A stretch of DNA of 64,000 nucleotides from Acidobacteriota bacterium (GTDB lineage Bacteria > Acidobacteriota > Terriglobia > Acidiferrales > UBA7541), in the NCBI GenBank assembly GCA_003224055.1, contig QHYE01000006.1, positions 1 to 64,000 on the forward strand, read 5' to 3'. This document shows, in pieces, positions 2,385-34,203 of this stretch. Position 1 is the first letter of the stretch. The number at the start of each line of letters is the position of its first letter. The notes under the pieces are model-generated. The model did no database searches, was not told where the DNA came from, and saw nothing but the letters and a program-made list of their open reading frames with translations. Both the position numbers and the translations under genes were made by a program.

Positions 2385-2396
2385 GGACCAGATCAT

Positions 2397-3305: not shown

Positions 3306-3307
3306 CG

Positions 3308-3709: not shown

Positions 3710-3711
3710 GT

Positions 3712-8798: not shown

Positions 8799-9141
8799 GA
8801 AACCAGTAGGAACTCGGTTCTGCTGTCGAACAGTAACCTGGATTTCGTGAAGCACGTGATTGCTCCGTGTGGATTCGCTCTCCCGAACCGTTTATGGAGA
8901 ACGAATTAGAGATCGGCACACAGCTGTTCACTAGATGGTTGGTAGGGGCGGTGGGGATCGAAACGACAAGTACTCGAATAAGGCTCGTGCCCTCAATGCG
9001 TTGCAGCCACCTAACCTGGCCAACCGGAACAAACGGAACAAAGCGTCGAATGGATCACGGATCACGTCCTAAGCATGGGTAACGTGTCACTTTTGCCCGT
9101 TACTCGTGGGAGCCTGTGAGCCGTTAGAGAGCGCGATGGAG
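8799..9141. other. Gene-free stretch with a tRNA-Lys 3'-end copy
   Basis: No credible gene. It holds the 25-nt tRNA-Lys end copy (8938-8962) and, near the end of the minus-strand protease gene, an inverted repeat GTAACG/CGTTAC (about 9078-9103) without a clear T-run. The repeat marks the possible left border of the island region. Confidence 0.5.
8938..8962. repeat. 25-nt copy of the tRNA-Lys 3' end (candidate outermost att site)
   Basis: Identical over 25 nt to 34127-34151, which covers the CCA end, acceptor strand and part of the T arm of the intact tRNA-Lys gene plus 3 bases beyond it. The copy at 15591 is also identical, and 8937-8963 matches 15590-15616 over 27 nt. Same orientation in all cases. 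A tyrosine integrase that targets a tRNA 3' end leaves exactly this kind of direct repeat. Confidence 0.7.
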
Positions 9142-15590: not shown

Positions 15591-15615
15591 GTTGGTAGGG
15601 GCGGTGGGGATCGAA
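15591..15615. repeat. 25-nt copy of the tRNA-Lys 3' end (candidate att site)
   Basis: Exact match to the tRNA-Lys 3' end at 34127-34151 and to 8938-8962. Beyond the core, bases 15616 to about 15690 also resemble the flank of the degenerate copy at 30494 (shared CGATTGGAAT and TAAG), which the tRNA copy does not. That is expected if the two mark ends of related integrated elements. Confidence 0.7.
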
Positions 15616-15930
15616 AACAATGCCGATTGGAATCTCAGGGAGTTAGAGGAAATGTCGAGGAACGCTAAGGCATTGAAAAGGAACGATAGGGAGTCCAACG
15701 GAATCCTTATTGGCCCCTCAATGGCCCCTCGTTTTTTCTGCCGCTGAGATTCCTTCGCGGTGGGTTTTCGCCCACTACCCTAGATACAAAGTTGGCTTCG
15801 GGCCCAAATCTCGCGGCACGGATGGCTAGCCAACGTTCACAATTAAGAACGGAATCGGCTGCCTACGGGATAGCCTCATCTCTCAGTAAGATAGATGATT
15901 GGTCCTTTGAAGCCTGAGTGTCTCAGAAAC

Positions 15931-18642: not shown

Positions 18643-18696
18643 GGGCACCCTCTTCGCCGAATTTTCCGGGGCCTGGAACGGGCGAAAGCAACCAAG

Positions 18697-19770: not shown

Positions 19771-20740
19771 GATTACTTCCACACAGCACTTGAATCAGCC
19801 CGGCCATATCGGCCTTGTACAGGTTCATGTGTTCCATTGCGATCTCCCATCGCGGATCGAACTTTTCGCTTTCCCAATCGAATGCCGCAAGCCGTCTAAA
19901 AATCTTGCCAATCAGCGCTAGTTGCTTGAGATCTTCCACCTGCACGCCGGACCATAATTCCTTCAAAACGGAGTGGTATGCGACGATGTCCACATGCGCT
20001 AGATCCACGGCAGGCACGCCCCACCCACTCATCTCCCAATCATAAGAAGTGAAGACGGCCCCGCTATGACTATCCCTACGAACCAACGCATTCTTTGGCT
20101 TGAAATCTCCATGAACAAAAGTCCGCGGCATCCGGTCAGAGTATTTCTCCAACTCATTCCAGTGCGACTCCAGCCACATACACTGGGACATCGCGCCAGA
20201 AACAATCATCGACTCTTCTTTCCGAAAGTTGCAGACCGCCAGAGCCTGGGCCAATCTTCGGTGAGCAGACTGCAAGTGTCGAAGGTAGTGTTGTGGACCT
20301 CGGTCCGGAAGGGACAAAGACTCAGCAATGACAGCCGATGATCTGTGAAGCAATCCCAACCATTCCGCCGCCAACCGAGAATGCTCCGCAGACTGTCGCG
20401 AGTATTGCTCCCCATGCAGGCACTCCAAAAAGAGCCAATCAAACTCTTCGTCTCCGGGGACAGTTCCGTAGAAGTGAGGAGTCGCAACCGGTAGCTTGCA
20501 CAAAAGTTCTCCATAGACGATGCGCTCATGCAGTGCGACCGGTCGTCGGCAGTACTTGGCAATAATGGCGGAGCCGCCCGGACCGGCGTCCGCAAGCCGA
20601 TAAACAGTGGACTTGATGCGTTTCTTGAGCACTACGATCTCGCTTGGCTCAACTGCTAGGCGCTGCAATCTGTTCCAAGCAAGGACTGCCGGATGCTCCG
20701 CCAGGTTCGATCTTACGATTTCGAGGGCGGTCTCAGGCAT
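19757..20740 (-). CDS. Aminoglycoside-phosphotransferase-fold kinase, copy B
   Basis: A 327-residue APH-fold protein with the complete catalytic loop TFVHGDFKPKNALV and the metal-binding YDWEMSGWGVPAVDLAHVD, so unlike copy A it keeps the catalytic Asp. ATG 20740 has GGGAGA 6 nt upstream and overlaps the ABC transporter stop by 8 nt; a GTG at 20773 is in frame but less likely. The pair looks like diverged paralogues acting in one pathway. The function is inferred from fold only: phosphorylation of a small hydroxyl-bearing substrate in the cytoplasm. Confidence 0.82.
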   Translation of the reverse strand: MPETALEIVRSNLAEHPAVLAWNRLQRLAVEPSEIVVLKKRIKSTVYRLADAGPGGSAIIAKYCRRPVALHERIVYGELLCKLPVATPHFYGTVPGDEEFDWLFLECLHGEQYSRQSAEHSRLAAEWLGLLHRSSAVIAESLSLPDRGPQHYLRHLQSAHRRLAQALAVCNFRKEESMIVSGAMSQCMWLESHWNELEKYSDRMPRTFVHGDFKPKNALVRRDSHSGAVFTSYDWEMSGWGVPAVDLAHVDIVAYHSVLKELWSGVQVEDLKQLALIGKIFRRLAAFDWESEKFDPRWEIAMEHMNLYKADMAGLIQVLCGSNHASA

Positions 20741-22535: not shown

Positions 22536-25138
22536 CTAGCTTCCTCGAATCCGAGCTTATTCAGCGCGCGGCAAACAGCGGCGGTGGCACTCCCGGCAGC
22601 TTGGAAAGTGAGTCCACCGACGGCCAACGCCAAGGCGCCAAGGATACAGGAGGCAGCCCAAGCATGGTCAGAGCTTGCAGCCCAGGCCAAAACCGCAAGC
22701 GATGAGGCAAGCACCAAGCCAAGAAGCGAGAATCGCGGATAACCATGCAAACGAACAAGCTGTTTGCCGGAACCGTATTCTTCGCTGACAAGACGGAGAC
22801 GGACATTTCCGAAGATACCGCTGCCCACCTCCAAATCCCAGTCGTCGTAGTCTCCGCCTCGCCGGACCACAGCAGCGGCTTCCCGCAATGTCGATTCGAT
22901 CGCCTGCAATCTTTCAATCGAGCTTTGCCCCTTTTCATTCCACAAGCGGAAACCGCGCCGTAGTGGAAACGATAGGCCGACCTTGCGTCGATCGCGCCAA
23001 AGGGCAAATTCATAGCGGAGGCGTCCCCAAAAACGCGCCAGTGGCTGCAGCAGATAAAGAAATGCAGTGAGGATCCTGAGCCGGACTCGAGCAAAGTGAG
23101 TTTCCGGACAGGATGAAAAACGAACGCAGGATATGCGCAATGCCACAGTGAGGAGACCAACCGACAAACACAGAATCAATAAGGGCAGTGCGACAAGAAG
23201 CCGAGGCCAGAGGAAGCCCATTGCCGAAAGACCAGCAAGCAACACGTTGAGGAGAACCCACTCTGGCATGGCCGGGAGTGAGTGCAGCAGGCCGGGCTGG
23301 GGAGAGTACATCCTTGTATAGAATGCCGTTCCCCAGGTCCCCTGATAGATTCGTCCGCGCGCACATTGAACGCTGCGGAGAAGGCCATCTGAGTAAATTC
23401 GGCCGCCCCAGGCGATCTGTCCGGCAGTGTTATATTTTTCCGGCCATTTCCTTTCGACCATGGCTTCTGCCTTGCCGTAACCCACTTGCTGCTTCCAAAA
23501 CCCGCACAAAGTGCCACGGCAATGATGCAGCACCATAGCGGCCGGACTGAAACCCAAACGCCCGCCAGCTTCCTGAATGCGCCAGCAAACATCGACGTCG
23601 TCCCCAGCAACGCGGAATTGGGAATCGAAACCGCCGATCGACTGCAGCCAGTCTCGCCGAAATGCCATGTTGCATCCCGGGATGTGCTCCGCTTCTTGGT
23701 CAGAGAGCAGCACATGGGTAGGCCCGCCCGGTGCATGCGCAATGCAAGCCGCCACTTCGCCATCATCGGGAAACGGGATGTTCGGGCCACCTACGCCTGC
23801 GGAGTTGGCCCTCTGAAACGTCAATGCTAGATAGCTGAGCCAGTCAGGATCCGGTGATGCGTCGTCGTCAAGGTAAGCGATAATTTCTTCGGTCGCAGCA
23901 GCCAGGCCCAAATTCCGGGCATTGCTCAGTCCGCGATTCTCGGTGCGGATAACCCGCACGTTATACTCGAGAGCAATATCGCCCGCGCCGTCCGTTGATC
24001 CATCGTCAACGACGATGACCTCATAGTTCGGATACCGCAATTTTTCGAGCCCTTCGAGGCACTGCCGGATGGTACGACTTCCGTTGAATGTGCAAACCAC
24101 GACGGACGCTCGCGGCCAGCAAATGCCGGGTTCAAACGGCGCGTCCGCAAAAGCTCTGCGCACGGAACTCAGTGCGGGCTTCGGTATTCGGTCATGATCC
24201 GTTAAGCCAAATTTCCAGTCTTTGACCTCCTGGCCGTGGTTGTGCCACTCGTCGGTCCAGGAATAAACGAAGGCGCCCGCACAACCTGCGACAAATGCGG
24301 TGCGGATCTGCCAGTCGAGCGATGCTGCCTGTGCAGCCTCGCCGTTTCGCATGCTATCCAATCCAATTTCCGTCATGAGCAGAGGGCGATTGCCAGCCAA
24401 GTTTTGCAGCCGGGCAAGATAGGCTTCCAAGCGCGGCCGGGACTCCAGAAAAACGTTGAAACACACCAGATCCAGAAACTGCAAGTCCAGGTATTCCGTG
24501 GTCGGATAGTTGGCGTAGCAGAAGAGCCCTTCGGGATCCTGGTCTTTGGCCGAGCAGAAGAGACTTTCAATGAACCGCTCTATCTTGCGTGCGCCGTGCC
24601 ATCGCACAATATGTGCGGGAATCTCATTGGCGATGGTATAGGACAGAACGGCGGCGTGACCGCTGCAAGCCCGCGCGCCTGCGTTTACCTGGCTCCTTAT
24701 GTCTTTAAGCGCCTTCTTGTCTTCTAGAAATGCGAAATGCCGTTCGCCTTGCAAGCCGACCATAACGCGAAGGCTATGTTCCTGCGCACAGTCCAGCAAC
24801 CATCTTGGCGGAGCGTTGTACGTGCGAATGGCATTCATGCCGGAAGCAGCGATTAAGGCGAAGTCCCGTTCAACGCCCTCACGTGATGGATAGGTATGTC
24901 CGTCTTGATGAGGGCGGAAGGGACCATAGGTCACGCCGCGGACGTAGAACTTTTCCTCACCAACCCAGAGAAACTTGCCACGCAGCGTGGGCCGGACCCA
25001 CGGGGTCACGGTTGCTCGGGCCACACGGGGAATGGACAACTCGAAAGTGGTGGTTGGTGCGGGGAGGACCGTTGCGCTCATGGCTTGGGGACCGCCGAGT
25101 GACGAGCCCGCTCCCCAACTGTCACGCTGCAGGGGCAT
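22532..25138 (-). CDS. Clan GH-A glycosidase-like / family 2 glycosyltransferase fusion membrane protein
   Basis: An 868-residue two-enzyme protein. Residues about 50-330 form a TIM barrel like GH2/GH5 glycosidases, with the clan GH-A acid/base pair Asn171-Glu172 (IANEIP) and nucleophile-position Glu257 (LMTEIGLD) both present. Residues about 343-620 are a GT2 domain with VVVCTFNGS, VVDDGSTDG, YLDDDASPD (DxD metal site) and FRVAGDDVDVCWR. The C-terminal third has several hydrophobic spans (for example LLVALPLLILCLSVGLLTVAL). The frame opens upstream at 25366, but ATG 25138 has a strong GGAGAGG site and overlaps galE by only 17 nt. It probably builds, and perhaps trims or transglycosylates, a glycan on a membrane acceptor. 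Confidence 0.85.
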   Translation of the reverse strand: MPLQRDSWGAGSSLGGPQAMSATVLPAPTTTFELSIPRVARATVTPWVRPTLRGKFLWVGEEKFYVRGVTYGPFRPHQDGHTYPSREGVERDFALIAASGMNAIRTYNAPPRWLLDCAQEHSLRVMVGLQGERHFAFLEDKKALKDIRSQVNAGARACSGHAAVLSYTIANEIPAHIVRWHGARKIERFIESLFCSAKDQDPEGLFCYANYPTTEYLDLQFLDLVCFNVFLESRPRLEAYLARLQNLAGNRPLLMTEIGLDSMRNGEAAQAASLDWQIRTAFVAGCAGAFVYSWTDEWHNHGQEVKDWKFGLTDHDRIPKPALSSVRRAFADAPFEPGICWPRASVVVCTFNGSRTIRQCLEGLEKLRYPNYEVIVVDDGSTDGAGDIALEYNVRVIRTENRGLSNARNLGLAAATEEIIAYLDDDASPDPDWLSYLALTFQRANSAGVGGPNIPFPDDGEVAACIAHAPGGPTHVLLSDQEAEHIPGCNMAFRRDWLQSIGGFDSQFRVAGDDVDVCWRIQEAGGRLGFSPAAMVLHHCRGTLCGFWKQQVGYGKAEAMVERKWPEKYNTAGQIAWGGRIYSDGLLRSVQCARGRIYQGTWGTAFYTRMYSPQPGLLHSLPAMPEWVLLNVLLAGLSAMGFLWPRLLVALPLLILCLSVGLLTVALRISCVRFSSCPETHFARVRLRILTAFLYLLQPLARFWGRLRYEFALWRDRRKVGLSFPLRRGFRLWNEKGQSSIERLQAIESTLREAAAVVRRGGDYDDWDLEVGSGIFGNVRLRLVSEEYGSGKQLVRLHGYPRFSLLGLVLASSLAVLAWAASSDHAWAASCILGALALAVGGLTFQAAGSATAAVCRALNKLGFEEAR

Positions 25139-26171
25139 GGGAGCGCGCCTCTCCAAGCAGGCCAAGGTCGTGTCGTGCCGGGTCAACGCAGCCCAATGTG
25201 GGTCTTTGAGATATGTGCCAATTCCAAGCAGTCTGTGCGATGTTTTCCAGGGAGGAATGCCGCGGTTGCCAGCCAAGAAGCTCCCTGGCTTTCGCCGGAT
25301 CGGCGACCAGTTCAGGAGGGTCGCCGGCGCGCCGCTGCGCTTCTTTAACCGGAACTCGGCGTCCACTCACGCGTTCGACGGCAGCAACTACCTGGCGAAC
25401 GGAGTGGCCACTTCCTGTGCCGAGATTAATAGCAGCATTCCCGTGGCTCTTGAGCATGTGTCTTAGCGCTGCAACATGCGCTTCGGCCAAGTCCATTACG
25501 TGCGTGTAGTCGCGGACGGCAGTGCGGTCTGGAGTGGGATAATCCGTGCCGTAAATTTCGAGAGCCGGTTTTTCTCCCAGCGCCGCTTGTATGGCGAGCG
25601 GAATTAGGTGAGTTTCCGGTGAGTGGTCTTCTCCCAGCTCACCATCAGGGTCGGCGCCTGCAGCGTTGAAATAACGCAGTGCCGTCCAGCGCAGGCCGTA
25701 GGCCTCACCGTACCAAGCAAGGATGCGCTCGACCATTCTCTTTGACTCACCGTACGGATTAATAGGTGTCTGTACTTGCTCCTCGCGAATGGGGACGCTC
25801 GTGGGAATGCCGTAGGTCGCGCAGCTGGACGAAAAAACGATGTGCTTTACCCACATGTCCGTCATTGCATCGAGCAGTCTGAGCGTGTAGGTCACATTGT
25901 TGCGAAAATATTGCCGCGGGCGCTGCATCGACTCTCCTACGTAGGCGAAACCAGCAAAGTGCACAACGGCTTGGATCCTGTGCGACTTGATTACTTCGCG
26001 AAGTAATGTGGAATCTCCCAGATTCCCTTCGACCAGCGGTCCCCATTTCACCGCGCACCGGTGCCCGGCTGAAAGGTTATCGAGCACGATTGGCTCAAAC
26101 CCTGCGCGAGCCAAAACTTTGGCAGTATGGCTGCCGATGTAGCCCGCCCCGCCGGTCACGAGTACCCGCAT
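25122..26171 (-). CDS. galE: UDP-glucose 4-epimerase
   Basis: A 349-residue short-chain dehydrogenase-type epimerase that interconverts UDP-glucose and UDP-galactose (or the N-acetyl forms) using bound NAD. Visible motifs: N-terminal NAD site VTGGAGYIGSH, SSSCATYG with the catalytic Ser/Thr region, YGESKRMVE (Tyr-x3-Lys), and ALRYFNAAGADPDGELGEDH typical of GalE. ATG 26171 sits behind GGGGAGGTGAGG. It is the first gene of a five-gene operon with the GH-GT2 fusion, ABC exporter and two kinases, so it likely supplies the sugar donor. A terminator-containing leader precedes it. Confidence 0.95.
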   Translation of the reverse strand: MRVLVTGGAGYIGSHTAKVLARAGFEPIVLDNLSAGHRCAVKWGPLVEGNLGDSTLLREVIKSHRIQAVVHFAGFAYVGESMQRPRQYFRNNVTYTLRLLDAMTDMWVKHIVFSSSCATYGIPTSVPIREEQVQTPINPYGESKRMVERILAWYGEAYGLRWTALRYFNAAGADPDGELGEDHSPETHLIPLAIQAALGEKPALEIYGTDYPTPDRTAVRDYTHVMDLAEAHVAALRHMLKSHGNAAINLGTGSGHSVRQVVAAVERVSGRRVPVKEAQRRAGDPPELVADPAKARELLGWQPRHSSLENIAQTAWNWHISQRPTLGCVDPARHDLGLLGEARSHAPAA

Positions 26172-26182
26172 CCTCACCTCCC

Positions 26183-26222
26183 CTAAAACAAAAACTCCGC
26201 CACGGCCTCAGCTGGGGCGGAG
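26183..26222 (-). terminator. Intrinsic terminator directly upstream of galE
   Basis: On the minus strand CTCCGCC (26222-26216) pairs with GGCGGAG (26201-26195), a 7-bp GC stem, followed at once by TTTTTGTTTT. The T-run ends just before the galE ribosome site, so any transcript starting upstream must pass it. It may end the PilZ transcript or act as an attenuator of galE. Confidence 0.7.
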
Positions 26223-26227
26223 ATCGC

Positions 26228-26293
26228 AATACCGGTAGATTTCAATACGGCGCGACCTTGGTGCCGCCATTCATGTCGCATTCACACGGTATT
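26228..26293 (-). promoter_or_regulatory. Structured galE leader (candidate attenuator/riboswitch-like element)
   Basis: On the minus strand AATACCG (26293-26287) can pair with CGGTATT (26234-26228), closing a 66-nt module that contains a strong inner hairpin: GGCG-GC-ACC with GGT-CG-CGCC (26268-26249). The terminator follows 6 nt later. A TTGACG (-35-like, 26313-26308) lies just upstream. I do not match it to a known riboswitch; the structure is seen by eye and unverified. Confidence 0.4.
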
Positions 26294-26381
26294 AATGTAG
26301 AAAGGCTGCGTCAATTGGCTGATCGAAGTAACCCGTGGGGTTAAGAGAAAAACCTGAGAAGAGATCGAAGGGATAGTCTGC

Positions 26382-26690
26382 TCAAATCACGTACTGCAAG
26401 CCGATTCGGTAGTGCCGGCCGGATGGAACTTTTTCTGCCCAACGAACCTGAACGAGCGTGGGGATCTGTGCGGGCACCCGAGGAAACACAAGCCGACCTT
26501 GAAGGAGTCCGCCCTTTTCTGGAGCACGAGTGGCGATGACGCAGAAACCGCCATCGGAAATATTTTTCACTTTCCCTTCAAAGACCCGCGATTTTCGACG
26601 GCTTTGATGCAATGGTAACTCGCCGCCGAGAAACCGCCCTTTCGTTGCATGGCGCGGTTGAACCCGCTTTTTCTGCGATTTTACTTCCAT
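26382..26690 (-). CDS. PilZ-domain protein (stand-alone)
   Basis: A 102-residue single PilZ domain. The two c-di-GMP-binding motifs are present: RVQPR (RxxxR) near residue 9 and NISDGGF (N/DxSxxG) around 43-49, followed by the beta-barrel with VRWAEKVPSGRHYRIGLQYV at the end. Such proteins relay c-di-GMP levels to partner proteins in motility, pili or exopolysaccharide production. It lies between a LuxR-type regulator and galE on the same strand, with a 210-nt leader before galE. Confidence 0.82.
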   Translation of the reverse strand: MEVKSQKKRVQPRHATKGRFLGGELPLHQSRRKSRVFEGKVKNISDGGFCVIATRAPEKGGLLQGRLVFPRVPAQIPTLVQVRWAEKVPSGRHYRIGLQYVI

Positions 26691-26759
26691 AGTAATCCAG
26701 TAAGTCTGCTACACCTGTCAACCCGCAGGAATTGAACGTGGCATAAACGGAGAACGAGG

Positions 26760-27470
26760 CTAGGGGGAGGTTTCTCCGTTCATAATTTTCTTCGCCTGAA
26801 GGATTTTCCCGATGATGCCGGTCCTATTTTCAGCTCTAACTTTGAGCATTACGGATCTTAAGAAAGCCTTTACCGTGTTTGGGCTGATGTCCATCCGGTT
26901 GGCGATCTGCTTGGTACTGAGATCCTGGAGCAGAAGATCAACTGTCTCCCTTTCTCGCCGGGTTAGGCGGAATTTCCGGGCCACGCTTTCAAGATCGAGG
27001 GAGTCTCGCTGATTTCTTTCCAGCAAGAGACCGATCGCCGGTCCCCGCTCAATTCCAAGATTCGATTTCAACGAGAATGCTCGCAATTGGTAGCGCCTCC
27101 TTCCGGACGTGATTTCATTCAGAAATTTGGAAGGAGTGAAACCGTTATGATGCCCATTGCTGGGAATTAGCGATCGGATCCTGCTCCGTAGAAAGTTGTC
27201 AAAGCCTTTGTTTTTGGATGGAACTCCCGGGTAAGCGAGGATAGCAAGGGCTTCTTCACTCGCGTAAATCGGCTGGAGGGAAGAATCCAGAAGAAGAAAC
27301 CCCGCAGCAAGCGACACTCCATGGCCGTTACTTGAAGCATGGCCATTCCCGGAGCTCTTATCGATTGCACGACGAAAGTGTTCCGCAGGAACACCGCCGA
27401 ACCGCAAAGATGGATTTCGCAGTTTTTCGGTGGATGGCCCCGATAGAGTTGGGTTTCTCGTTGCCAACAT
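26760..27470 (-). CDS. LuxR-family transcription regulator
   Basis: A 236-residue protein with a C-terminal LuxR/GerE helix-turn-helix (about residues 165-225: LTRRERETVDLLLQDLSTKQIANRMDISPNTVKAFL...). The N-terminal 150 residues contain a PAS-like stretch (FLLLDSSLQPIYASEEALAIL), similar to single-domain sensors that end in a GerE HTH; there is no receiver Asp pocket, so it is not a classical two-component regulator. ATG 27470 is used; GTG 27479 and TTG 27482 are also in frame. Targets are unknown, possibly the neighbouring PilZ and galE genes. Confidence 0.82.
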   Translation of the reverse strand: MLATRNPTLSGPSTEKLRNPSLRFGGVPAEHFRRAIDKSSGNGHASSNGHGVSLAAGFLLLDSSLQPIYASEEALAILAYPGVPSKNKGFDNFLRSRIRSLIPSNGHHNGFTPSKFLNEITSGRRRYQLRAFSLKSNLGIERGPAIGLLLERNQRDSLDLESVARKFRLTRRERETVDLLLQDLSTKQIANRMDISPNTVKAFLRSVMLKVRAENRTGIIGKILQAKKIMNGETSP

Positions 27471-27943
27471 CGGCGTCACCAATCACGATGTTCACGCGCC
27501 TAGGACCGGGCGCAAGCAATGACCCTCCCCTGAGTAACCGTAAGACTCTTTCCCCAAGGCCAAACTGGGGCCTGGGGTCGTGCATGAGTCAAATAGGAAA
27601 CGGCCTCTTTTTACATACTTCGCGGGTCCAAGTGCTGCAATCAGGTGAAGACCTTATTCCGCGATAGGGAAAGACCTCCCTTGCAACTTTACGACGGCAG
27701 TTTGCCCATCAATTACGGTGGCGCGGGCCGAAGGGCCGCCGCGGTGGGTTGCTCTAGCGAATCGCAAGAACTGAGCGTTGTGGGTAGATCTGTGGGTAGA
27801 ATTCCCAAATGTCAACTCTTCGCAGACATGGCAGGATGGTTTGTACGAAATCAGACTGGATTTGAAATACTACCTGCCTAAAGAGAGTAATGAGAATCGG
27901 GATTTGAAAAGGGTGTATCGTTGCGACGGCGCTCTTAATTCCT
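27471..27943. other. Gene-free stretch upstream of the LuxR gene
   Basis: About 470 nt with only short overlapping frames lacking ribosome sites. It includes the LuxR gene's promoter region and a perfect tandem repeat: TGTGGGTAGA at 27779-27788 and again at 27791-27800, spaced by TC. No RNA gene or mobile-element end was recognised. Confidence 0.45.
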
Positions 27944-28186
27944 TCAAATCAGCCTGCGCTCGTACGCAACCCATCGTCCTTTCGTTCGCTTTGACTTTGG
28001 GGGCTTATAGCATATCTCCAAGAGGATTTCGCCTCCTCTTTCCTTTTTGTGGATGATGACGTATTCGGCCGGCCACAACTCCGCGAGTGCCGTGACGCGG
28101 GCTTTTGCAGCGTCAAGAGTTGGCGCAGCCTCTACGAAATGCGGGTTTCCGTCGCCCAACTTGAAGATGCAAAAGGGCAGGCGCAT
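27944..28186 (-). CDS. Small conserved-looking protein of unknown function
   Basis: An 80-residue protein beginning MRLPFCIFKLGDGNPHFVEA, then TLDAAKARVTALAELWPAEYVIIHKK. The pattern of a strand, an FVEAA segment, a helix with LDAAKARV, and EYVI resembles small proteins I recall from acidobacterial genomes; no function is known to me. ATG 28186 has GGAG 5 nt upstream; a TTG at 28204 would extend it by six residues. It lies on the same strand as the surrounding PilZ and FHA genes. Confidence 0.6.
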   Translation of the reverse strand: MRLPFCIFKLGDGNPHFVEAAPTLDAAKARVTALAELWPAEYVIIHKKERGGEILLEICYKPPKSKRTKGRWVAYERRLI

Positions 28187-28241
28187 CCGAACTCCAAACT
28201 CCAAATGGGGGGACAGCCTGCTAGGAGGGACAGCAGAGCGA

Positions 28242-28643
28242 TTATCTCATCAATTCGCTGCGTTGCGCACGAGCTTTAAGCGAGGTCGCGCAACTCCTCA
28301 ACCACTTTTCCAAAATTACCTGATCGTTCGGCTCAATCTGCGTAAAGGCGATTCCCATTCCCTCCGATGTCGTGTAAGAGACCTTGCCGAGAGCCACGAA
28401 CTTGGCACTCCTTCGGGCAACCCTAATTCTCACCTTTGCCCCGGTCGGGAAGGGTTTGCGAGTCTCGACGCGGCAGCCATACAAGCTCAGGTCACCGGTT
28501 CGCTTCTGAATCTTGGCTTCTGACTGCGTATCAGTCAGTTCCATAGTGGCCACGAACAGGTAACGGCGGGTACGTGAAGGCGTGTGCATCATTTCATTGT
28601 GTGCGCAGCCTAGCACGCGGCGAGCATCGAAATTAGCTGCCAT
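28242..28643 (-). CDS. PilZ-like domain protein
   Basis: A 133-residue protein with a PilZ-type barrel: GDLSLYGCRVETRKPFPTGAKVRIRV holds the DxSxxG motif, and the domain ends with YTTSEGMGIAFTQIEPND and a helical tail. The usual RxxxR motif is not clear (only RTRR upstream), so c-di-GMP binding is uncertain. The true start could be ATG 28643 or an internal ATG near 28592; neither has a strong ribosome site. It sits among other small signalling proteins. Confidence 0.72.
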   Translation of the reverse strand: MAANFDARRVLGCAHNEMMHTPSRTRRYLFVATMELTDTQSEAKIQKRTGDLSLYGCRVETRKPFPTGAKVRIRVARRSAKFVALGKVSYTTSEGMGIAFTQIEPNDQVILEKWLRSCATSLKARAQRSELMR

Positions 28644-28699
28644 TGTCGAAGAAGGCAGAGCGGGGATTACGATTCCGCATTATCAAGCGGTGAGTCCAT

Positions 28700-29092
28700 C
28701 TAAGCGTGGCGTTTCGGGAGAATCGTGACCAGAAGCAGTGATGAGCCGACGCGGAATTCCGACAAGTGTTCAAGCTCGGCGGTCTGGATGCGTTCATCAT
28801 TGACATAAGTGCCGCTCGTCGAGTCCAAGTCATATAGCCTGATCCGGTCCTGATTCACTGCCACGGCGCAATGCAAGACGGAAACCTTTGGGTCGTCGAT
28901 TTCGATGTCCGTCGCGCCACCAGCGCACCCTATGCTAATCCGTGGTTTGCTGAATTGATGCGCCAGACCCTTGGACAGACCACCGATGACGGAGATTGTA
29001 ATCGTATTATCCTTCGGCAAGACGAAGCTCTTGGATCGGCTAGCGATCTCTTGCAGCTCGCACTCTGCCTCACGCACGGCCTTGGGTTGCAT
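28700..29092 (-). CDS. FHA-domain protein
   Basis: A 130-residue protein that is essentially one FHA domain, a module that binds phosphothreonine peptides. The signature residues appear in order: ISIG (strand with Gly), SVLHCAV (the conserved Ser-x2-His), and LYDLDSTSGTYVND (the GxxxNG-like loop). A 40-residue helical N-terminus precedes it. It has no membrane segment or kinase domain, so it probably works as an adaptor to a Ser/Thr kinase encoded elsewhere. It diverges from the PilZ gene at 29364. Confidence 0.85.
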   Translation of the reverse strand: MQPKAVREAECELQEIASRSKSFVLPKDNTITISVIGGLSKGLAHQFSKPRISIGCAGGATDIEIDDPKVSVLHCAVAVNQDRIRLYDLDSTSGTYVNDERIQTAELEHLSEFRVGSSLLLVTILPKRHA

Positions 29093-29256
29093 ATGAGCCT
29101 AGCGCTGAAAAATAACAGCCGCAGCCGTGGACTCCAATGAACCCATAGTACCAAGGTGTAGAAACTCCCGTTCCAGGCGGAAAGCGGCACTCGGCAGATG
29201 GTACGCGTTAATGGGGCACCAGCCAGATACGCCCCTTTACAAAATGTGCAACCAAA

Positions 29257-29300
29257 CAATCGCGGGCGATTGACTCCCCCTTGTACCTTCCGCTTATCAT
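29257..29300 (+). promoter_or_regulatory. Candidate promoter with overlapping palindrome
   Basis: TTGACT at 29270-29275 and TTATCA at 29294-29299 (18-nt spacing) resemble -35 and -10 boxes for the PilZ gene at 29364. The palindrome CAATCGC-GG-GCGATTG (29257-29272) overlaps the -35, so a bound protein could block it. Prediction by eye only. Confidence 0.35.
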
Positions 29301-29363
29301 TTCGGGCATGAAATTACGGCTCATTTTCCCCACACGTCCTTCAACCGAGAGGAGCATTGCCGG

Positions 29364-29690
29364 ATGCCCACTGACTGCAAGAGAATCCAGAAACGGACCC
29401 CTGCCACTGTGGCTTTGCAGGTCACTAGCGCGAAGCAGCCGTTCATCGCGGAATTGGCATTTACTGAAAATGTGAGCTTACACGGCGTCCGGGTCGTAAC
29501 GGAGCGTGCGTGGAAACCAGGAGAGCGCGTGATTGTGAAGTCCTACCACGGCAGTATCCAATCAGTGGCAAAGGTAGTTTATTGTTACCGCTTGGCGGAG
29601 ACACGATATGCCGTCGGCTTGGAGTTGCGTTCAGCGGTGGGGACGTGGGCGGACGTTTTGCAACCACAATCACCAAGGGTGGAAGCGTAG
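29364..29690 (+). CDS. PilZ-domain protein (stand-alone)
   Basis: A 108-residue single PilZ domain with RIQKR (RxxxR, residues 7-11) and NVSLHGVRV (NxSxxG, about 36-44), both expected for c-di-GMP binding. It ends with AETRYAVGLELRS, the last strands of the barrel. ATG 29364 has GAGGAG about 9 nt upstream. It is transcribed divergently from the FHA gene and is the third PilZ-type protein within 3.3 kb. Confidence 0.8.
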   Translation: MPTDCKRIQKRTPATVALQVTSAKQPFIAELAFTENVSLHGVRVVTERAWKPGERVIVKSYHGSIQSVAKVVYCYRLAETRYAVGLELRSAVGTWADVLQPQSPRVEA

Positions 29691-29731
29691 CCAGCCTTCG
29701 CCATTCTCTCCAGCCGCCCGGAGTAGCCTCT

Positions 29732-29929
29732 TCATTTCGGAAACGGTCCAGCCATAACTGGCCCCGGCAATTCCGGCTCCCACGGTTGCTTGCAATAGGC
29801 GGACTTGAGTTCTGTCCGGCAAGCGACGCTGGCCTCAGACATCGGCGTAATCGCTACCGAGTTTTTCTTTTGGCAGTGCGGGCAAGTTAGTTCGATAGGT
29901 ATGTGTGGGCGTGCGGAAGTCGTTGCCAT
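29732..29929 (-). CDS. Small CxxC (half zinc-ribbon) protein
   Basis: A 65-residue protein, MATTSARPHIPIELTCPHCQ then KKNSVAITPMSE..., with CPHC near residue 16 and two later cysteines (VACRTE, YCKQ), so four cysteines could hold one zinc. The frame is open to 30100, but ATG 29929 has GAGAAGG 8 nt upstream. No function is recognised. Its start region faces the gene at 30065. Confidence 0.5.
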   Translation of the reverse strand: MATTSARPHIPIELTCPHCQKKNSVAITPMSEASVACRTELKSAYCKQPWEPELPGPVMAGPFPK

Positions 29930-30064
29930 TTGGGGGCCTTCTCCCACGCTAGGTACACTCTGGCCCGTTCCAGAGTCTTGCTGGGCCCGGCCGGAAGAGT
30001 GAGTGCTGCACTTTTCCGGCCTTGGCGCGTTCAGACGTGCGAACTGAATTCTAGGAAATCCTCC

Positions 30065-30592
30065 ATGAGCGATAGAGTTTCTGGGGCTATGGTGCTCCAC
30101 GATTTCTTTGGCGCACGAGGCAATGATGTCGCCGCCGTGAATCCCGACGACCTCCGAAATGCTTGGACAATGATGCGCGACTTGCAGGCCCTCGCTCTAC
30201 CAGGTCAATGCGGAAGTATTTGTAGCGGGCTTTATGAAGGCGCGTGCAGCCCCGGTGCAAATGTGGTGGCCGTCTGGTATCGCGCAACCATCCTGGGAGT
30301 GTTGCAAATGCTACCGGGAAACCCGCTAACGCCGTGGTCACACGAGGGCGACCTTGACGATGCGGTATTCCAGATCGCGGCAACATTCCCAATGAAGAAA
30401 TTGCCAGTCGGCCTTGTGAAGAACGGACTTCCGTTCGATGTGCAGGATCTTGTGAAGCAGATCGGAGCACGGACAGGAAATCAGCAAAAGAAAGTTGGTA
30501 GGGGCGGTGAGGTCGAAAACAACACCGATTGGAATTTCAAGGCCAAACAAGAAATCCTGAGGCGCGTTAAGACATCTTTTCTTCTTAGTTGA
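30065..30592 (+). CDS. Unknown protein whose 3' end runs through a tRNA-end repeat
   Basis: A 175-residue frame from ATG 30065 (GGAA 7 nt upstream). The first 140 residues look like a real protein (MSDRVSGAMVLHDFFGARGN ..., hydrophobic AVWYRATILGVLQML), but I do not recognise the family. From residue about 144 the frame crosses the degenerate tRNA-Lys end copy (30494-30517) and codes VGRGGEVENN and then unrelated sequence. The simplest reading is that integration replaced the original C-terminus. It could also be a spurious frame. Confidence 0.45.
   Translation: MSDRVSGAMVLHDFFGARGNDVAAVNPDDLRNAWTMMRDLQALALPGQCGSICSGLYEGACSPGANVVAVWYRATILGVLQMLPGNPLTPWSHEGDLDDAVFQIAATFPMKKLPVGLVKNGLPFDVQDLVKQIGARTGNQQKKVGRGGEVENNTDWNFKAKQEILRRVKTSFLLS
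30494..30517. repeat. Degenerate copy of the tRNA-Lys 3' end
   Basis: Matches the 25-nt core at 15591 and 34127 except for one missing base and one substitution near GGTGAGGTCGAA. Its right flank continues to resemble that of 15591 for roughly 70-90 nt (for example CGATTGGAAT, then GAAAT and TAAG). Confidence 0.6.
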
Positions 30593-30883
30593 GTTTTTCC
30601 TTTTTTTAGGCCTCTTACTATATTGAGGGAGCTCTTGCAGGTTCTTCCTTTAGGTTCGCTGCAGCCGTGGCACTTCGGTCTGCCACCCTGCTTTGTGGGG
30701 TGTTGCTCGACGGTTCCGCGCCGAATGCGAAGGCTTTCGCTACTCAGGTGCCCCTGGCCGAGTCTCGCTGCTGTGGCGACGGGCTCCCGGTGCGTCCGAG
30801 TTCGTACACGGCGGTTCTCCAACCGGGACGAACGCAGTGATCGCTCGCCTTAGGTCCGAAATCGCCGCACGAATCATAACGCC

Positions 30884-31888
30884 ATGAACATCGCTTCTGT
30901 CCATCTCGACGCGCTGAAAGCTCTCGGCTACACCGAAGCGGAAGCTCGCTTTCTCTACATCGTAGCGACGCATTCGGGGTACTTTGTGGCGCGTCAATTC
31001 CTTGTGTTCGCCAACGCTCATTGGGGCGAGCGCACGACCACTTTCTGGAACAAGCTTCACACCAAGAAGCACGCCCGCACCGAATGCTTCCCAAAGACCG
31101 GGATCGTCTACCACGTGTTCTCCCGCCGGCTCTACCGCCAGATCGACCGCGAGAACATCTGCAATCGCCGGCAACACGAAATCGAGTACATCCAGCGGCG
31201 CATCGGAATCCTCGATTTTGTCCTTTCCAACCCACAGTACAGGTACTTGGAAACCGAACCGGAAAAGATCAGCTTTTTCTGTGATCAGCTGAAAACGCCG
31301 CGTCACTTTCTGCCCTCGAAGATCTGTCACGGACAGAAAACCTCACAGCCTACGCTTCGCTATTTCGTCGACAAGTTTCTGATGTTTCTCCATGGCGACG
31401 TCCCTTCGCCTGTGGTGACGTTCACCTACGTTCAAGGGCCAGAAGCCAGTCTTACGGAATTTGTGCACCATCTCGAAGTCTACCTTCCTCTGTTTGGGCA
31501 GCTCTCGGAGTTCCGAGTTCTCTATCTGGCAAGAGTCGATTCGTACTTCGAAAAAGCCAAGGAGCTATTCAATGCCTTGGTTGCAGTTCCGCTCGGCTCG
31601 GACGCGTCGGCAGATTTGTTGCGCTACTTCCAAGTCCGAAAGGCCTGGGACCTCGGCCGCTACGGGTCTTTGAGTGAGGCTGATTTGATATTCCGAAATC
31701 AGGCCAAGACCCGATTCACCGGACAACATTTCGAACATCTCTATCGCGGATGGAAAGTCGGACGAGTGAGCACAACCGACATTCTTCAAGAGTTCGGTGG
31801 TAACAAGCAACCCGCCACGGTGCACTTCGCTACCGAAGTGCTGCGCCGGTTAGGGGTTCCTATACAGAAACCTGAAGGGAAGGGGTGA
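30884..31888 (+). CDS. Unknown 334-residue protein of the integrative element
   Basis: I do not recognise a named family with certainty. The N-terminus (LDALKALGYTEAEARFLYIV ... GYFVARQFLVFA) reads like a winged helix, as in replication-relaxation or MarR-like proteins. The middle is rich in aromatic residues (YRYLETEPEKISFFCDQL) and the end has a helical part (FEHLYRGWKVGRVSTTDIL). It begins at ATG 30884 without a strong ribosome site. I recall similar proteins in acidobacterial genomes beside small ribbon-helix-helix genes, so a role in replication, mobilisation or control of the element is plausible but unproven. Confidence 0.7.
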   Translation: MNIASVHLDALKALGYTEAEARFLYIVATHSGYFVARQFLVFANAHWGERTTTFWNKLHTKKHARTECFPKTGIVYHVFSRRLYRQIDRENICNRRQHEIEYIQRRIGILDFVLSNPQYRYLETEPEKISFFCDQLKTPRHFLPSKICHGQKTSQPTLRYFVDKFLMFLHGDVPSPVVTFTYVQGPEASLTEFVHHLEVYLPLFGQLSEFRVLYLARVDSYFEKAKELFNALVAVPLGSDASADLLRYFQVRKAWDLGRYGSLSEADLIFRNQAKTRFTGQHFEHLYRGWKVGRVSTTDILQEFGGNKQPATVHFATEVLRRLGVPIQKPEGKG

Positions 31889-32191
31889 AGAATGTAAGAA
31901 CTACATCCTTCAGCTCCGTCTTCTGCAAGTTCTTCAGCTTGTGGCGATAGCAATTTCTTTGAAGTGTGGGAGATAGCAAAGTAATGCCGACAAAAGTCAC
32001 ATTGGATAAAACACGAAAACGGGCGGGAGCGACCCCGATTTTGTGGGCTTTCAGCCGCCCAAAATTTCGTGGGGTCGCTCCCGCCCGTCAAGCAGGAAGC
32101 GTGACCGTGTTTTGGCCGCGTGCATACAGAGATGTAATCGACCGCAATGCGGAGCAGAAATAATTCCAACTGAAGAGAGGAGAGAATCTCG
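31889..32191. other. Intergenic region with a long hairpin
   Basis: A 303-nt gap between the 334-residue gene and the ribbon-helix-helix gene. It contains the long inverted repeat at 32019-32088 and the ribosome site of the next gene (GAGGAG, about 9 nt before ATG 32192). No gene is seen. Confidence 0.5.
32019..32088. repeat. Long GC-rich inverted repeat (cruciform or hairpin)
   Basis: ACGGGCGGGAGCGACCCC (32019-32036) is perfectly complementary to GGGGTCGCTCCCGCCCGT (32071-32088), 18 bp. Inside, TGGGC/GCCC and TTTT/AAAA pair further around the loop TTTCAGCC. No T-run follows, so it is not a standard terminator. It may be a REP-like element, a replication or processing site of the mobile element, or a miniature transposon remnant. 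Confidence 0.75.
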
Positions 32192-32443
32192 ATGGCAGTT
32201 CTGAAAGCACCACTGAAACAGCCCAAAACCACGGTTGTCCAACTACGGCTTGACGACGAAGCAAAGATGAACCTTGCAAAATATGCAGAGTTCCTCGATT
32301 GCTCACCGTCGTACGTCGTGACGGAAGCTCTGAAACTCGTCTATAGCAAGGACAAAGAATTCCAATCCTGGCTTTCAGGCCAACACATCGACAAGCGCAA
32401 AGCGACCTCGAAAGGAGAGTCCATCCAACTGGAATTGAAGTAA
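32192..32443 (+). CDS. Ribbon-helix-helix DNA-binding protein
   Basis: An 83-residue protein. TTVVQLRLDDEAKMNLAKYAEFL then CSPSYVVTEALKLVYSKD gives the strand-helix-helix pattern of CopG/Arc-type regulators (strand VVQLRL, helices DEAKMNLAKYAEFL and SPSYVVTEALKLVY). ATG 32192 follows GAGGAG. It likely binds near the upstream inverted repeat and controls the element's genes or copy state; this is inference. Confidence 0.75.
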   Translation: MAVLKAPLKQPKTTVVQLRLDDEAKMNLAKYAEFLDCSPSYVVTEALKLVYSKDKEFQSWLSGQHIDKRKATSKGESIQLELK

Positions 32444-32449
32444 AACACC

Positions 32450-32947
32450 ATGCACCACCGCCTCCAATCCGACATACGTGAGAACCCAGCGTCCGACCGA
32501 CGACATGGCTCACGCCCAGCAGCACGCAATCTTTTGGATGCAACTCTCACCGAGGATGCGACCACAACATCACCGCCGCGACCTGTTGGCCAAAATCATT
32601 CGCTGCCCGAGGCTGACCGCAAGCCTGATGCCGCGTCACCCCGCGCGGCCACAGGGAAAGAGAAAAAAGGTCAAAACGAGACCCAAGCTGTCGCAGTCGC
32701 ACTCATGCGTTCACAAAACCCCACCCTCGGTTTCGAGCCGTTAATTGGAAGCCCCCAGGCAGCCAAACTGCTCGGCAACATCCATGTCAAGACTCTGCAA
32801 CGTTACGCTCGTCAACGACGCATTCCTGGATATCAGATTGGAGGTCACTGGTATTTTCGTGCATCGGAACTGGACTCTTGGTTGCAATCTCGGATAAATT
32901 TGTCGTGCCATCCGTGCCGCTTACAGGAGAAATCGGATGGAACATAA
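32450..32947 (+). CDS. Excisionase-like HTH protein
   Basis: A 165-residue frame. The C-terminal 70 residues form a MerR-type/excisionase helix-turn-helix: IGSPQAAKLLGNIHVKTLQRYARQRRIPGYQIGGHWYFRASELDSWL. The first 85 residues are polar and Pro/Arg-rich with no domain, so the real start may be ATG 32705 (80 residues), although neither start has a clear ribosome site. The end overlaps the integrase start by 11 nt, the usual xis-int arrangement. It probably bends DNA at the att site to direct excision. Confidence 0.75.
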   Translation: MHHRLQSDIRENPASDRRHGSRPAARNLLDATLTEDATTTSPPRPVGQNHSLPEADRKPDAASPRAATGKEKKGQNETQAVAVALMRSQNPTLGFEPLIGSPQAAKLLGNIHVKTLQRYARQRRIPGYQIGGHWYFRASELDSWLQSRINLSCHPCRLQEKSDGT

Positions 32948-34079
32948 GCGGCAACGGGTTCAGTTTGGTTGGGTTTGTTTGAAAGCGAGAAAGAAGGGTC
33001 CAGACGTGTGGGTTCTGCGATATCGCGAGAATCTCCCGGACGGGAGCAAGAAAAGGCGAAGCGTAGCCATCGGAACAGCTGAAGAATTTCCAACTGAGTC
33101 CCAAGCACGCAAGGCCGCTCTGTCATGGTTATTCTCGATGAACGCAGAAGCGTCAAGTGGAACGACCGTTTCGTTCGGCGCAGTCATCCAGCGATACCTT
33201 GCGGAAGAGATTCCTGAAAGGGCCTCGACTGCTTCACGGTATCGGTGCTGGCTGAAGAATCATGTTGAGCCGAAATGGCGAGACTATCCCATCGAGCAGA
33301 TCAAGCCCCTGCTGGTTGAAGATTGGCTCAAGAGGCTCAATTTGGCACCGAAAAGTAAGTCCCATCTCAAAAACTTAATGCGCGTGCTATTTAACGCGGC
33401 GATGCGCTGGGAGCTGATTCCTTATCAGCACAATCCCATGAGCCTCGTCCGCGTGAAAGACAGTTCTAAGAGACAGCGGGAACCGAAGGCACTTTCAGTG
33501 GACGAGTTTCGAAGAGTGCTTGAGAACATTCCCGAGCCTTTCCGAACCATGTGCATTGTGGCGATGTGTTTGGGACTACGTGTAAGTGAAATCCTCGGTT
33601 TGAGATGGAATGCCATCGACTGGGAAGGGCTGCGCTTGGCGGTACGACAAGCTTACGTCTACGGGAAACAAGGCGACGTAAAAACACAGGCCTCTCACCG
33701 ATGGATGCCTCTTGACCGTTCGCTTGCAGAGAAGCTCCGTCAACATAAGGCGAGGCTGGCTCCGCCAGTGAAGTCTGAAGACTGGGTATTCGCAAACCCG
33801 GAAACAAGAAAGCCGTATTGGCCTGGTCGAATTCAGGAGAACTGGCTCGTCCCCGCAGCAGAAAAAGCAGGGATAGGCCGGATCGGCTGGCACACGTTCC
33901 GACACAGCCATTCAACGTTACTTCATGCGCTCGGTGTCAATCTCAAGGTGCAGCAGGAACTCTTGCGACATGCAGATGTTCGAACGACTATGAACATCTA
34001 CACGCAGGCCGTTCCTTCCGCTCTGCGAGAAGCGAACAGCAAAGTCGTTCGCTTAGTGCTCCCCGCGCAAGTCGCCTAG
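32937..34079 (+). CDS. Tyrosine recombinase/integrase
   Basis: A 380-residue phage-type integrase. The N-terminal arm-binding part (1-70) and core-binding SAM-like domain (about 75-165) precede the catalytic domain. Active-site residues are visible: Arg215 (GLRVSEILGLRW), Lys249 region, His319-x2-Arg322 (HTFRHS), His345 (LLRHADVRTT) and the nucleophile Tyr355 (MNIYTQ). ATG 32937 has AGGAGA 6 nt upstream. It ends 49 nt before the tRNA-Lys 3' end, its likely target, and overlaps the excisionase-like gene. Confidence 0.95.
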   Translation: MEHKRQRVQFGWVCLKARKKGPDVWVLRYRENLPDGSKKRRSVAIGTAEEFPTESQARKAALSWLFSMNAEASSGTTVSFGAVIQRYLAEEIPERASTASRYRCWLKNHVEPKWRDYPIEQIKPLLVEDWLKRLNLAPKSKSHLKNLMRVLFNAAMRWELIPYQHNPMSLVRVKDSSKRQREPKALSVDEFRRVLENIPEPFRTMCIVAMCLGLRVSEILGLRWNAIDWEGLRLAVRQAYVYGKQGDVKTQASHRWMPLDRSLAEKLRQHKARLAPPVKSEDWVFANPETRKPYWPGRIQENWLVPAAEKAGIGRIGWHTFRHSHSTLLHALGVNLKVQQELLRHADVRTTMNIYTQAVPSALREANSKVVRLVLPAQVA

Positions 34080-34126
34080 CGTTAAAACCCCTCGAAAAGT
34101 CACAAGTTGCTATATATGAAGGATAT

Positions 34127-34151
34127 GTTGGTAGGGGCGGTGGGGATCGAA
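34127..34151. repeat. tRNA-Lys-proximal att core
   Basis: The 25-nt segment shared exactly with 8938-8962 and 15591-15615. It covers the CCA end, acceptor 3' strand and part of the T arm of the tRNA gene plus 2 bases outside it. Recombination inside it leaves the tRNA gene intact. Confidence 0.75.
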
Positions 34152-34203
34152 CCCACGACCTTCGGCTTAAAAGGCCGCTGCTCTACCACTGAGCTACGCC
34201 CCT
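34129..34203 (-). tRNA. tRNA-Lys (anticodon TTT)
   Basis: Read on the minus strand: acceptor AGGGGCG pairs fully with CGCCCCT, then discriminator A and encoded CCA (34131-34129). D stem GCTC/GAGC, anticodon loop CTTTTAA (anticodon TTT, Lys), T arm GTGGG-TTCGATC-CCCAC. The anticodon stem has one G-A mismatch at its top pair. The 3' end faces the integrase gene and is the source of the repeats at 8938, 15591 and 30494. Confidence 0.95.

Follow-up and report, generated by a model that had tools for sequence, protein, structure and literature searches.

Here, we describe a small integrative element next to a tRNA-Lys gene in a 64,000-nucleotide stretch of DNA from a soil Acidobacteriota bacterium (GenBank assembly GCA_003224055.1, contig QHYE01000006.1, positions 1 to 64,000; hereafter, the window). 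Four intact open reading frames (ORFs) in the same direction, encoding proteins of 334, 83, 165, and 380 residues, adjoin the tRNA gene (Table 1); we refer to their products as CORE, RHH, Xis, and Int. Our analysis relates the element to integrative and conjugative elements (ICEs) of the same phylum and suggests that such ICEs could mobilize it.

Int is a tyrosine integrase (PF00589, E = 3.3e-19; phrog_1, E = 3.5e-62) and Xis an excisionase-like protein (HTH_17, E = 9.3e-14; TIGR01764 marginally above the cut-off), and together they provide an integration/excision module of the element's own at tRNA-Lys. The ribbon-helix-helix (RHH) label of the 83-residue protein is based on a weak match to phrog_876 ("transcriptional repressor"; E = 1.1e-6) and a sequence pattern only; its sole Pfam match is to another family, DUF1366, and is below the threshold (E = 0.0078). 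CORE has no credible match in Pfam, PHROG, or NCBIfam. Scans of the window genes gave no match within the element to a type IV secretion system (T4SS), a coupling protein (T4CP), a relaxase, or F3, a protein of the related ICEs described below. Only one gene of the window (358-1284) matches VirB11 strongly, and it encodes a Tad/CpaF-like ATPase and lies well away from the element. Phage packaging, capsid, virion, or replication genes were not recognized in the element by Pfam or PHROG, and a search for sigma-70-like promoters found 0 (1.8 in shuffled sequences). The initial annotation, made from the sequence alone, had likewise reported RHH, Xis, and integrase genes and no virion genes, and on these points we agree, the RHH match being the weak one. 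Its "unknown core protein" does belong to no database family, but its context is known: in relatives, CORE is a gene of VirB/VirD4-type ICEs. By the same token, the reported lack of conjugation genes holds for the window element but not for the relatives in which CORE occurs.

Table 1. Positions of the element's features and of the tRNA-Lys repeats in the window
Feature	Position	Strand	Remarks
Second alternative attL	8938..8962	no strand	25-nt copy of the tRNA-Lys 3' end, perfect
Alternative attL	15591..15615	no strand	25-nt copy of the tRNA-Lys 3' end, perfect
Candidate attL	30494..30517	no strand	Degenerate copy of the tRNA-Lys 3' end: 1 substitution and 1 deletion
Left arm beside attL	30518..30575	+	Resembles the sequence beside the 15591 repeat
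Conserved non-coding region before the operon	30583..30733	+	AGGCCTCTTACTATATTGAGGG palindrome and CACTTCGG stem
Final codons of the lost F3 gene	30857..30887	+	ATGA overlap of the F3 stop with the CORE start, also seen in L056
CORE, 334 aa	30884..31888	+	N-terminal winged helix; proposed relaxosome accessory (oriT-binding) protein
Three-way-junction DNA structure, candidate oriT	31998..32125	+	Covariance model R1, 92.8 bits
Inner arm of the junction	32019-32036/32071-32088		Perfect 18-bp inverted repeat
RHH-type DNA-binding protein, 83 aa	32192..32443	+	Proposed relaxosome auxiliary
Excisionase-like protein, 165 aa	32450..32947	+	HTH_17
Tyrosine integrase, 380 aa	32937..34079	+	91% identity to the integrase beside tRNA-Lys in L046
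attR core	34127..34151	no strand	Within the tRNA-Lys 3' end
tRNA-Lys(TTT), integration target	34129..34203	-	

CORE and F3 in conjugative elements of Acidobacteriota

The same genome has a second copy of CORE (85% identical), after which come RHH, Xis, and Int next to a tRNA-Gly gene. Counting fragments, CORE has matches in 34 of 89 genomes of the bacterial family and, in an even draw of the phylum, in 36 of 396 genomes, corresponding to 20 of 211 genera. At the sensitivity used, no relatives were found in phage records, plasmids, or IMG/VR, and a scan of genome contigs with the single CORE sequence returned two records, both acidobacterial (no profile search was made outside the phylum). CORE being found across the phylum, the initial annotation's idea of an element peculiar to Acidobacteriota is compatible with these results.

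In the related ICEs, a composite gene order assembled from several of them reads VirB2 (TrbC), VirB3, VirB4, VirB9 (CagX), VirB10 (TrbI), VirB5-like (our own label), VirB6 (TrbL), and VirB8, followed by F3, CORE, RHH, VirD4/TraG, VirB11, a RepB primase, Xis, Int, and the tRNA. The stretches from genomes G023 and G068 gave no match to VirB4, VirB8, or VirB10 (G, C, and L numbers denote our genomes, contigs, and loci). F3 lies directly upstream of CORE in 35 of the 40 tabulated loci (which count L033 and L056 from the same contig), in 26 at the distance of the 4-base ATGA overlap, and downstream of CORE we found RHH in 29 and T4CP in 22 of the 40. At the 20 distant loci, F3 stands beside CORE in 15 and a coupling protein is present in 15. 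Where 7.5 kb or more of DNA follows CORE (23 loci; L033 omitted as a duplicate of L056), a same-strand integrase match lies within 7.5 kb at 21 loci, one of which, L062, has a fragment only; the initial annotation had named in advance the opposite pattern, a 334-residue gene usually found away from integrases, as the one that would speak against it. Ten mini-elements have the integrase 0.8-1.1 kb from CORE, and in twelve ICE loci the distance is 4.3-4.6 kb; L059, L062, L066, and L073 fall outside both groups. Mini-elements of the same plan recur at different tRNAs, and in G068 an element with F3, CORE, T4CP, and VirB11 also occupies this tRNA-Lys, its att core being that of the window element in a 24-nt version. 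As for the T4SS, coupling protein, and relaxase by which an ICE is defined, the window element has none of the three, and its relatives have all except a recognized relaxase; no relaxase was found in Pfam scans, which covered the principal ICE genes but not all ORFs of all ICEs.

The initial annotation had proposed a satellite or helper-dependent element. Phage satellites (PICI- or P4-like), which a helper phage packages, are likewise small, integrase-bearing, helper-dependent islands (PMC11389934), and the small size of the element, its tRNA-side integrase and excisionase, and its repressor-like small protein would suit such an identity. However, the element holds no recognized packaging, capsid, or replication gene, no relatives of CORE were found in phage records and IMG/VR, and CORE is a gene of conjugative elements. 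With neither a phage gene nor a viral relative found, we rejected the phage satellite and consider it highly improbable. Helper dependence fits best when the helper is a conjugative element, and it is the phage-satellite sense of the proposal that lacks support.

The predicted structure of CORE has an N-terminal winged helix at approximately residues 1-88. The top Foldseek match, to FokI, is weak (E = 0.023, TM 0.20, root mean square deviation [rmsd] 15). Residues 104-323 weakly match EndoMS (Z 7.5, rmsd 3.0, 94 aligned) and chain E of the African swine fever virus (ASFV) RNA polymerase (Z 7.6, rmsd 3.3, 101 aligned), which we take to have a PD-(D/E)XK nuclease fold; a structural Z below 8 may reflect merely a common arrangement. 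In the CORE alignment (A1, 34 loci), D163 is nearly invariant, the expected Glu position holds a Thr that is lost in distant homologues, and the conserved positions do not form the acid/lysine pattern of a nuclease. We read CORE as a predicted DNA-binding partner with a nuclease-like C-terminal topology and not as the enzyme. CORE has a dN/dS of 0.19 between the two F3-less copies of its own genome and of 0.12-0.16 in six other pairs, compared with 0.11 for Int and 0.09 for RHH (one relative each) and a weaker 0.35 for Xis.

F3 is our candidate for the relaxase of the ICEs. The F3 model (pLDDT 80, residues 1-60 disordered) contains a predicted winged helix (VIA-align Z 11.6, rmsd 2.8, 88 residues); the list of structural matches sampled this winged helix only and is silent on the nuclease domain. 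In the F3 alignment (A2, 27 loci), P245-D246, E264, and K278 are invariant in 27 of 27 sequences. MOBC relaxases, such as TraX of pAD1 and MobC of CloDF13, are related to PD-(D/E)XK nucleases, and TraX has a winged helix (PMC12857230). F3 resembles them in its predicted winged helix and its invariant P-D...E...K, but it scores below the cut-off of PF13814 (MOBC), its nuclease fold and activity are putative, and the window element has no F3. Membership of F3 in PF13814 was rejected, with 2 of 27 sequences matching and a best E of 0.0092, below the 25.3-bit cut-off; PF13814 scored above the cut-off in 0 of 11 genomes and, likewise, in 0 of 14 control genomes.

Two further observations concern the ICEs. 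On one contig (G004:C58), two ICEs with different integrases (L056 and L065) appear to flank one tRNA-Pro, converging on it, and a distant ICE from G182 has a C-5 cytosine methylase gene and a single-stranded DNA-binding protein (SSB) gene between VirB8 and F3 (L142:4700-7506).

A conserved three-way junction downstream of CORE

The initial annotation had noted a large hairpin in the element. Its perfect inverted repeat is present (Table 1), but it forms just the central arm of a more extensive conserved structure at about 31998-32125, in which an outer stem surrounds two hairpins and which follows CORE in many elements. The hairpin is not among the seven terminator-like sites (the scan sees loops of 3-8 bases only). 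That it might be a dispersed repeat of its own genome was rejected; it occurs in just two places, both after CORE. The DNA-fold z score is -7.1 for the window, -12.7 for L056, -15.8 for L067, and -10.2 for L043. For the 28 pairs of two of the three stems in a MAFFT alignment of 25 sequences, 96.1% of the cells are paired, compared with 90.4% in shuffles and 44-54% when the sequences are slid, and 39 cells are doubly changed, compared with 14.3 in shuffles (0/500). Kinship among the sequences can inflate covariation counts, an effect against which the slid control offers partial protection. The third arm (P3) stands outside the count because MAFFT aligned it inconsistently. The junction alignments, A3 (27 rows) and A4 (25 rows), comprise the loci in which a motif search found both inner arms; L033 (on the contig of L056) and the interrupted L048, L050, and L059 were omitted from both, and L035 and L072 also from A4. 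The covariance model built for the junction matches 32 of 39 CORE loci, some of them cut by contig ends or interrupted. Of the 20 distant loci, 10 have a weak match (E = 6e-6 to 0.009) immediately past CORE, and two more have matches elsewhere.

Three loci have interrupted junctions. At L059, an IS110-family transposase gene (Pfam) lies inside the junction (2391-4152), and the sequence joined there is also found at this point in L048 (14102-14255) and L050 (29-182), close to contig ends. This insertion sequence may use the junction as a target.

Junctions also occur apart from CORE. The junction model finds sites in 37 of the 89 genomes, and of these 77 sites (after merging strands), a CORE match lies within 2.5 kb of 41 and a T4CP within 4 kb of 20 (19 have both), leaving 35 with neither. 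We examined 20 stretches, 19 of which cover 25 of the 35 sites without CORE and T4CP. An integrase match, in some cases a fragment, is present in 13 of these 19 stretches, a count that has no random-site density as its baseline, and seven (L111, L114, L115, L116 with a broken Int, L118, L123, and L124) show the order junction-RHH-Xis-Int-tRNA. Junctions accompanied by DNA-binding and integration genes alone are what an origin of transfer (oriT) predicts; a control site for RHH predicts part of this pattern too.

CORE-less junction sites are often paired, about 0.4-1 kb apart (L112, L113, L114, L118, and L119). One CORE-less junction element (L124; G050:C62:94000-108000) is flanked by two tRNA-Pro genes, which have 48 identical bases in common and a spacing of about 8.9 kb, and upstream of another is a Fic-domain gene (L115:2874-4442) that is possible cargo.

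A control function of the junction, either as an RNA leader or as an operator of the RHH/T4CP genes or Int, has to be weighed against that of an oriT. The junction lies between CORE and RHH in the transcribed orientation, folded as RNA it likewise scores far below shuffled sequences (z = -7.3), and L040, L042, L044, and L045 miss the junction and RHH together and keep T4CP, all of which would suit a control element. Against such a role, G-T and A-C departures from pairing are equal, at 11 and 11 cells, and these small numbers thus give no hint of an RNA-only role or of one-strand G-U tolerance; Rfam has no match at the junction; and at L109 the junction precedes Int without a clear RHH gene. 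Moreover, the position before the RHH and T4CP genes recalls the gene order oriT-trwA-trwB of R388. We consider a mere control element improbable and, based on gene order and conservation, propose that the junction is the oriT.

Ends of the element and origin of the F3-less form

Similarity to the close ICEs spans 30857, in the last F3 codons, to ~32086, at the end of the inner hairpin. DNA from 32008 resembles the mini-element L043 (82%), and DNA from 32624 resembles L046 (86%). This switching of similarity suggests a modular assembly of the element, with modules meeting at the junction or close to it. The tRNA-Gly copy has the same truncated upstream region, arguing that the F3-less form probably predates the split of the two copies in this genome. 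CORE loci without F3 also include L059, L062, and L072. In the resident genome (95.6% complete), we found no match to F3 or T4CP (other T4SS genes were not searched for); the same F3 and T4CP queries match 36 and 21 of the 89 genomes, respectively.

These observations could also describe a decayed remnant that lost F3 and the T4SS genes, stopped moving, and retains its genes as leftovers. The reduction of F3 to its last codons, the degenerate nearest attL copy, the lack of a helper match in the resident genome, and a junction fold weaker than in three relatives all suit decay. However, all four ORFs are intact, and their dN/dS values indicate constraint, less so for Xis; the genome has a second F3-less copy, at tRNA-Gly, whose upstream region is the same; and F3-less CORE loci, as well as small elements of the same plan at different tRNAs, occur elsewhere. 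We regard the remnant as unlikely and favor an element that is mobilizable.

The non-coding region at 30583-30733 is shared with L003, L043, L053, L059, and L062 and is retained where F3 is lost. It includes a palindrome (AGGCCTCT...GAGG), and its CACTTCGG stem coincides with a terminator-like site at 30667-30686; the region is a possible operator or second site.

With regard to the ends, the tRNA repeat GGTAGGGGCGGTG occurs 4 times in the window, compared with 0.06 expected (at most 1 mismatch). Of the three candidate attL copies, the nearest one, at 30494, is the least perfect, agreeing with the tRNA end at 23 of 25 positions. Because the 15591 and 30494 copies have a left arm in common (local alignment of 83 columns that takes in the repeat), they resemble left ends of related elements that share a hot spot. 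Because the nearest copy is degenerate and perfect copies lie farther out, the size of about 3.6 kb is one of three nested options, the others being 18.6 and 25.2 kb; it applies only if 30494 is the attL. The initial annotation had described a minimal element from 30494 to the tRNA; the four genes, the tRNA, and the hairpin are indeed there, but the boundary is the poorest of three repeats.

A larger mobile unit, in which Int excises 15591-34151 or 8938-34151 as a composite island with cargo and 30494 is an internal fossil att site, would be compatible with a mobilizable element. The perfect repeats at 8938 and 15591, compared with the imperfect one at 30494, would favor it, as would the left arm common to 15591 and 30494 and the observation that no second integrase of the same family was matched in the window. 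On the other hand, the 30494 copy retains its left arm and most positions, the genes at 15.6-30.5 kb resemble ordinary chromosomal genes or cargo, and tandem accretion, which the three tRNA-Lys att copies before the tRNA suggest, accounts for the repeats equally well. We find the larger unit rather doubtful, if a serious contender.

Several observations concern the surroundings of the element. An ORF at 30065-30592 (175 aa, no family match) crosses the candidate attL, and excision there would truncate it. Between 8938 and 34151 lie, among others, a glycosyltransferase gene (22532-25366), an ABC transporter gene (20733-22535), and an APH-type kinase gene (18697-19782). Among the matches listed, the downstream gene and a full tRNA-Lys never occur on one contig of a relative, and no empty site was found; on G017:C516, a 36-base tRNA-like piece lies 6.5 kb from a match to the downstream gene. 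The upstream Tad genes match in four relatives (5 of 36 genomes including the own one), with no tRNA-Lys on those contigs among the matches listed. The initial annotation had also named boundaries that do not match in relatives as contrary evidence; among the relatives examined, attL copies, by which this would be judged, were found in G023 and G068, as a second tRNA-Pro in L124, and as tRNA-Ile repeats in L039, and nothing clear was found elsewhere. In L039 (G006:C37:11800-31700), copies of 46 and 50 nt of the tRNA-Ile 3' end lie 5.5 and 1.4 kb before tRNA-Ile, suggesting repeated small insertions at one tRNA, as in the window.

A model for helper-dependent mobilization

Altogether, we conclude, with a probability of roughly 0.55, that we are dealing with an integrative mobilizable element (IME) that has no relaxase, depends on a helper, carries an oriT and accessory proteins, and arose from a family of Acidobacteriota ICEs by both reduction and module exchange. 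The direct results behind this conclusion are the relationship to ICEs, the gene order, the structure with its compensatory changes, the constraint on CORE, and the lack of an F3 or T4CP match in the resident genome. According to this model, Int and the Xis-like protein would excise a circle at tRNA-Lys, as suggested by the gene families and the repeats. RHH and CORE would bind the junction, which, judging from order and conservation, would act as oriT. F3 of a visiting related ICE, as the proposed relaxase, would nick at the junction, and the helper's VirD4/VirB system would pass the strand to a recipient, where Int would re-insert the circle at a tRNA.

Several points weigh against this conclusion. 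We infer excision, nicking, transfer, and the role of each protein from sequence; the identity of the helper's relaxase as F3 is a proposal, the matches to PF13814 being weak; and the idea that CORE and F3 are detectable paralogues was rejected, no profile relationship being found. Autonomous excision of 3.6 kb is doubtful because of the imperfect nearest repeat, and the constraint on CORE could partly be older than the loss of F3. The junction of the window is the weakest fold of the four tested, and the number of pairs with a double change shows a slight excess only (6 compared with 4.3 in shuffles; 19/500). The stretches examined from CORE loci L036, L037, L040, L042, L044, L045, and L062 gave no junction match. 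Five of these (L037, L040, L042, L044, and L045) have a coupling protein, such that those ICEs, if active, would need an oriT elsewhere. L040, L042, L044, and L045, where CORE directly adjoins T4CP and a search for RHH gave no gene, form a subgroup that either lost the junction and RHH or never possessed them. Among the 19 stretches around CORE-less junctions, six have no integrase (L120, L121, L122, L125, L127, and L128, three with the site near a contig end), and L112 and L119 hold a piece resembling the C-terminus of CORE and may be remnants.

The proposed element is akin to relaxase-less IMEs or "iOriT" elements, an example of which is MGIVflInd1, mobilized by an SXT-family ICE (PMC5704250, PMC11389934): it has its own tyrosine integrase and a recombination directionality factor, lacks a relaxase and a T4SS, and has a proposed ICE-like oriT that would be served by an ICE relaxase in trans. 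Such mobilizable genomic islands are 18-33 kb in size and have no proteins similar to conjugation proteins; in contrast, the window element is 3.6 kb (or nested) and encodes two putative relaxosome proteins. Its oriT, unlike theirs, is a candidate only, of a form that we did not find described in the literature searched. The closest published scheme, given in a figure legend of PMC5704250, is an IME with an oriT and a relaxosome accessory factor (RAF) that recruits the relaxase of a conjugative element. T4SS loci without a recognized relaxase are common; most have been argued to be protein exporters, with unknown relaxases allowed for some types, and ICEs have been reported in acidobacteria (Guglielmini et al. 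2011; PMC3158045). The helper ICE family resembles these "MOBless" systems in having VirB and VirD4 and no Pfam relaxase among the scanned genes, but the helper ICEs also carry integrase, Xis, primase, and SSB (two of them), and, therefore, look conjugative. Hitchers without a resident helper are known elsewhere, and oriT motifs are often unknown, so that hitchers stay hidden (PMC11389934). In the literature searched (mostly open papers, few subscription papers, and no preprints), neither this family of elements nor F3/CORE nor an oriT formed by a three-way junction was described.

We tentatively extend the model to a relaxosome type outside the established MOB profiles, a proposal that we think somewhat more apt to fail than to hold. 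It would combine F3, with its winged helix and PD...E...K nuclease, as the relaxase with CORE, a winged-helix partner whose nuclease-like domain is dead, with RHH as an auxiliary, and with the junction as oriT, and it would serve a hierarchy of hitchers, from F3-CORE to CORE-only to junction-only elements. The family supplies a concrete candidate relaxase, together with a candidate oriT for which a covariance model is available for searches. It forms a graded series in Acidobacteriota that leads from ICEs to elements with the junction and the integration module only. If the model is true, the junction model could be used to find mobilizable elements throughout the phylum.

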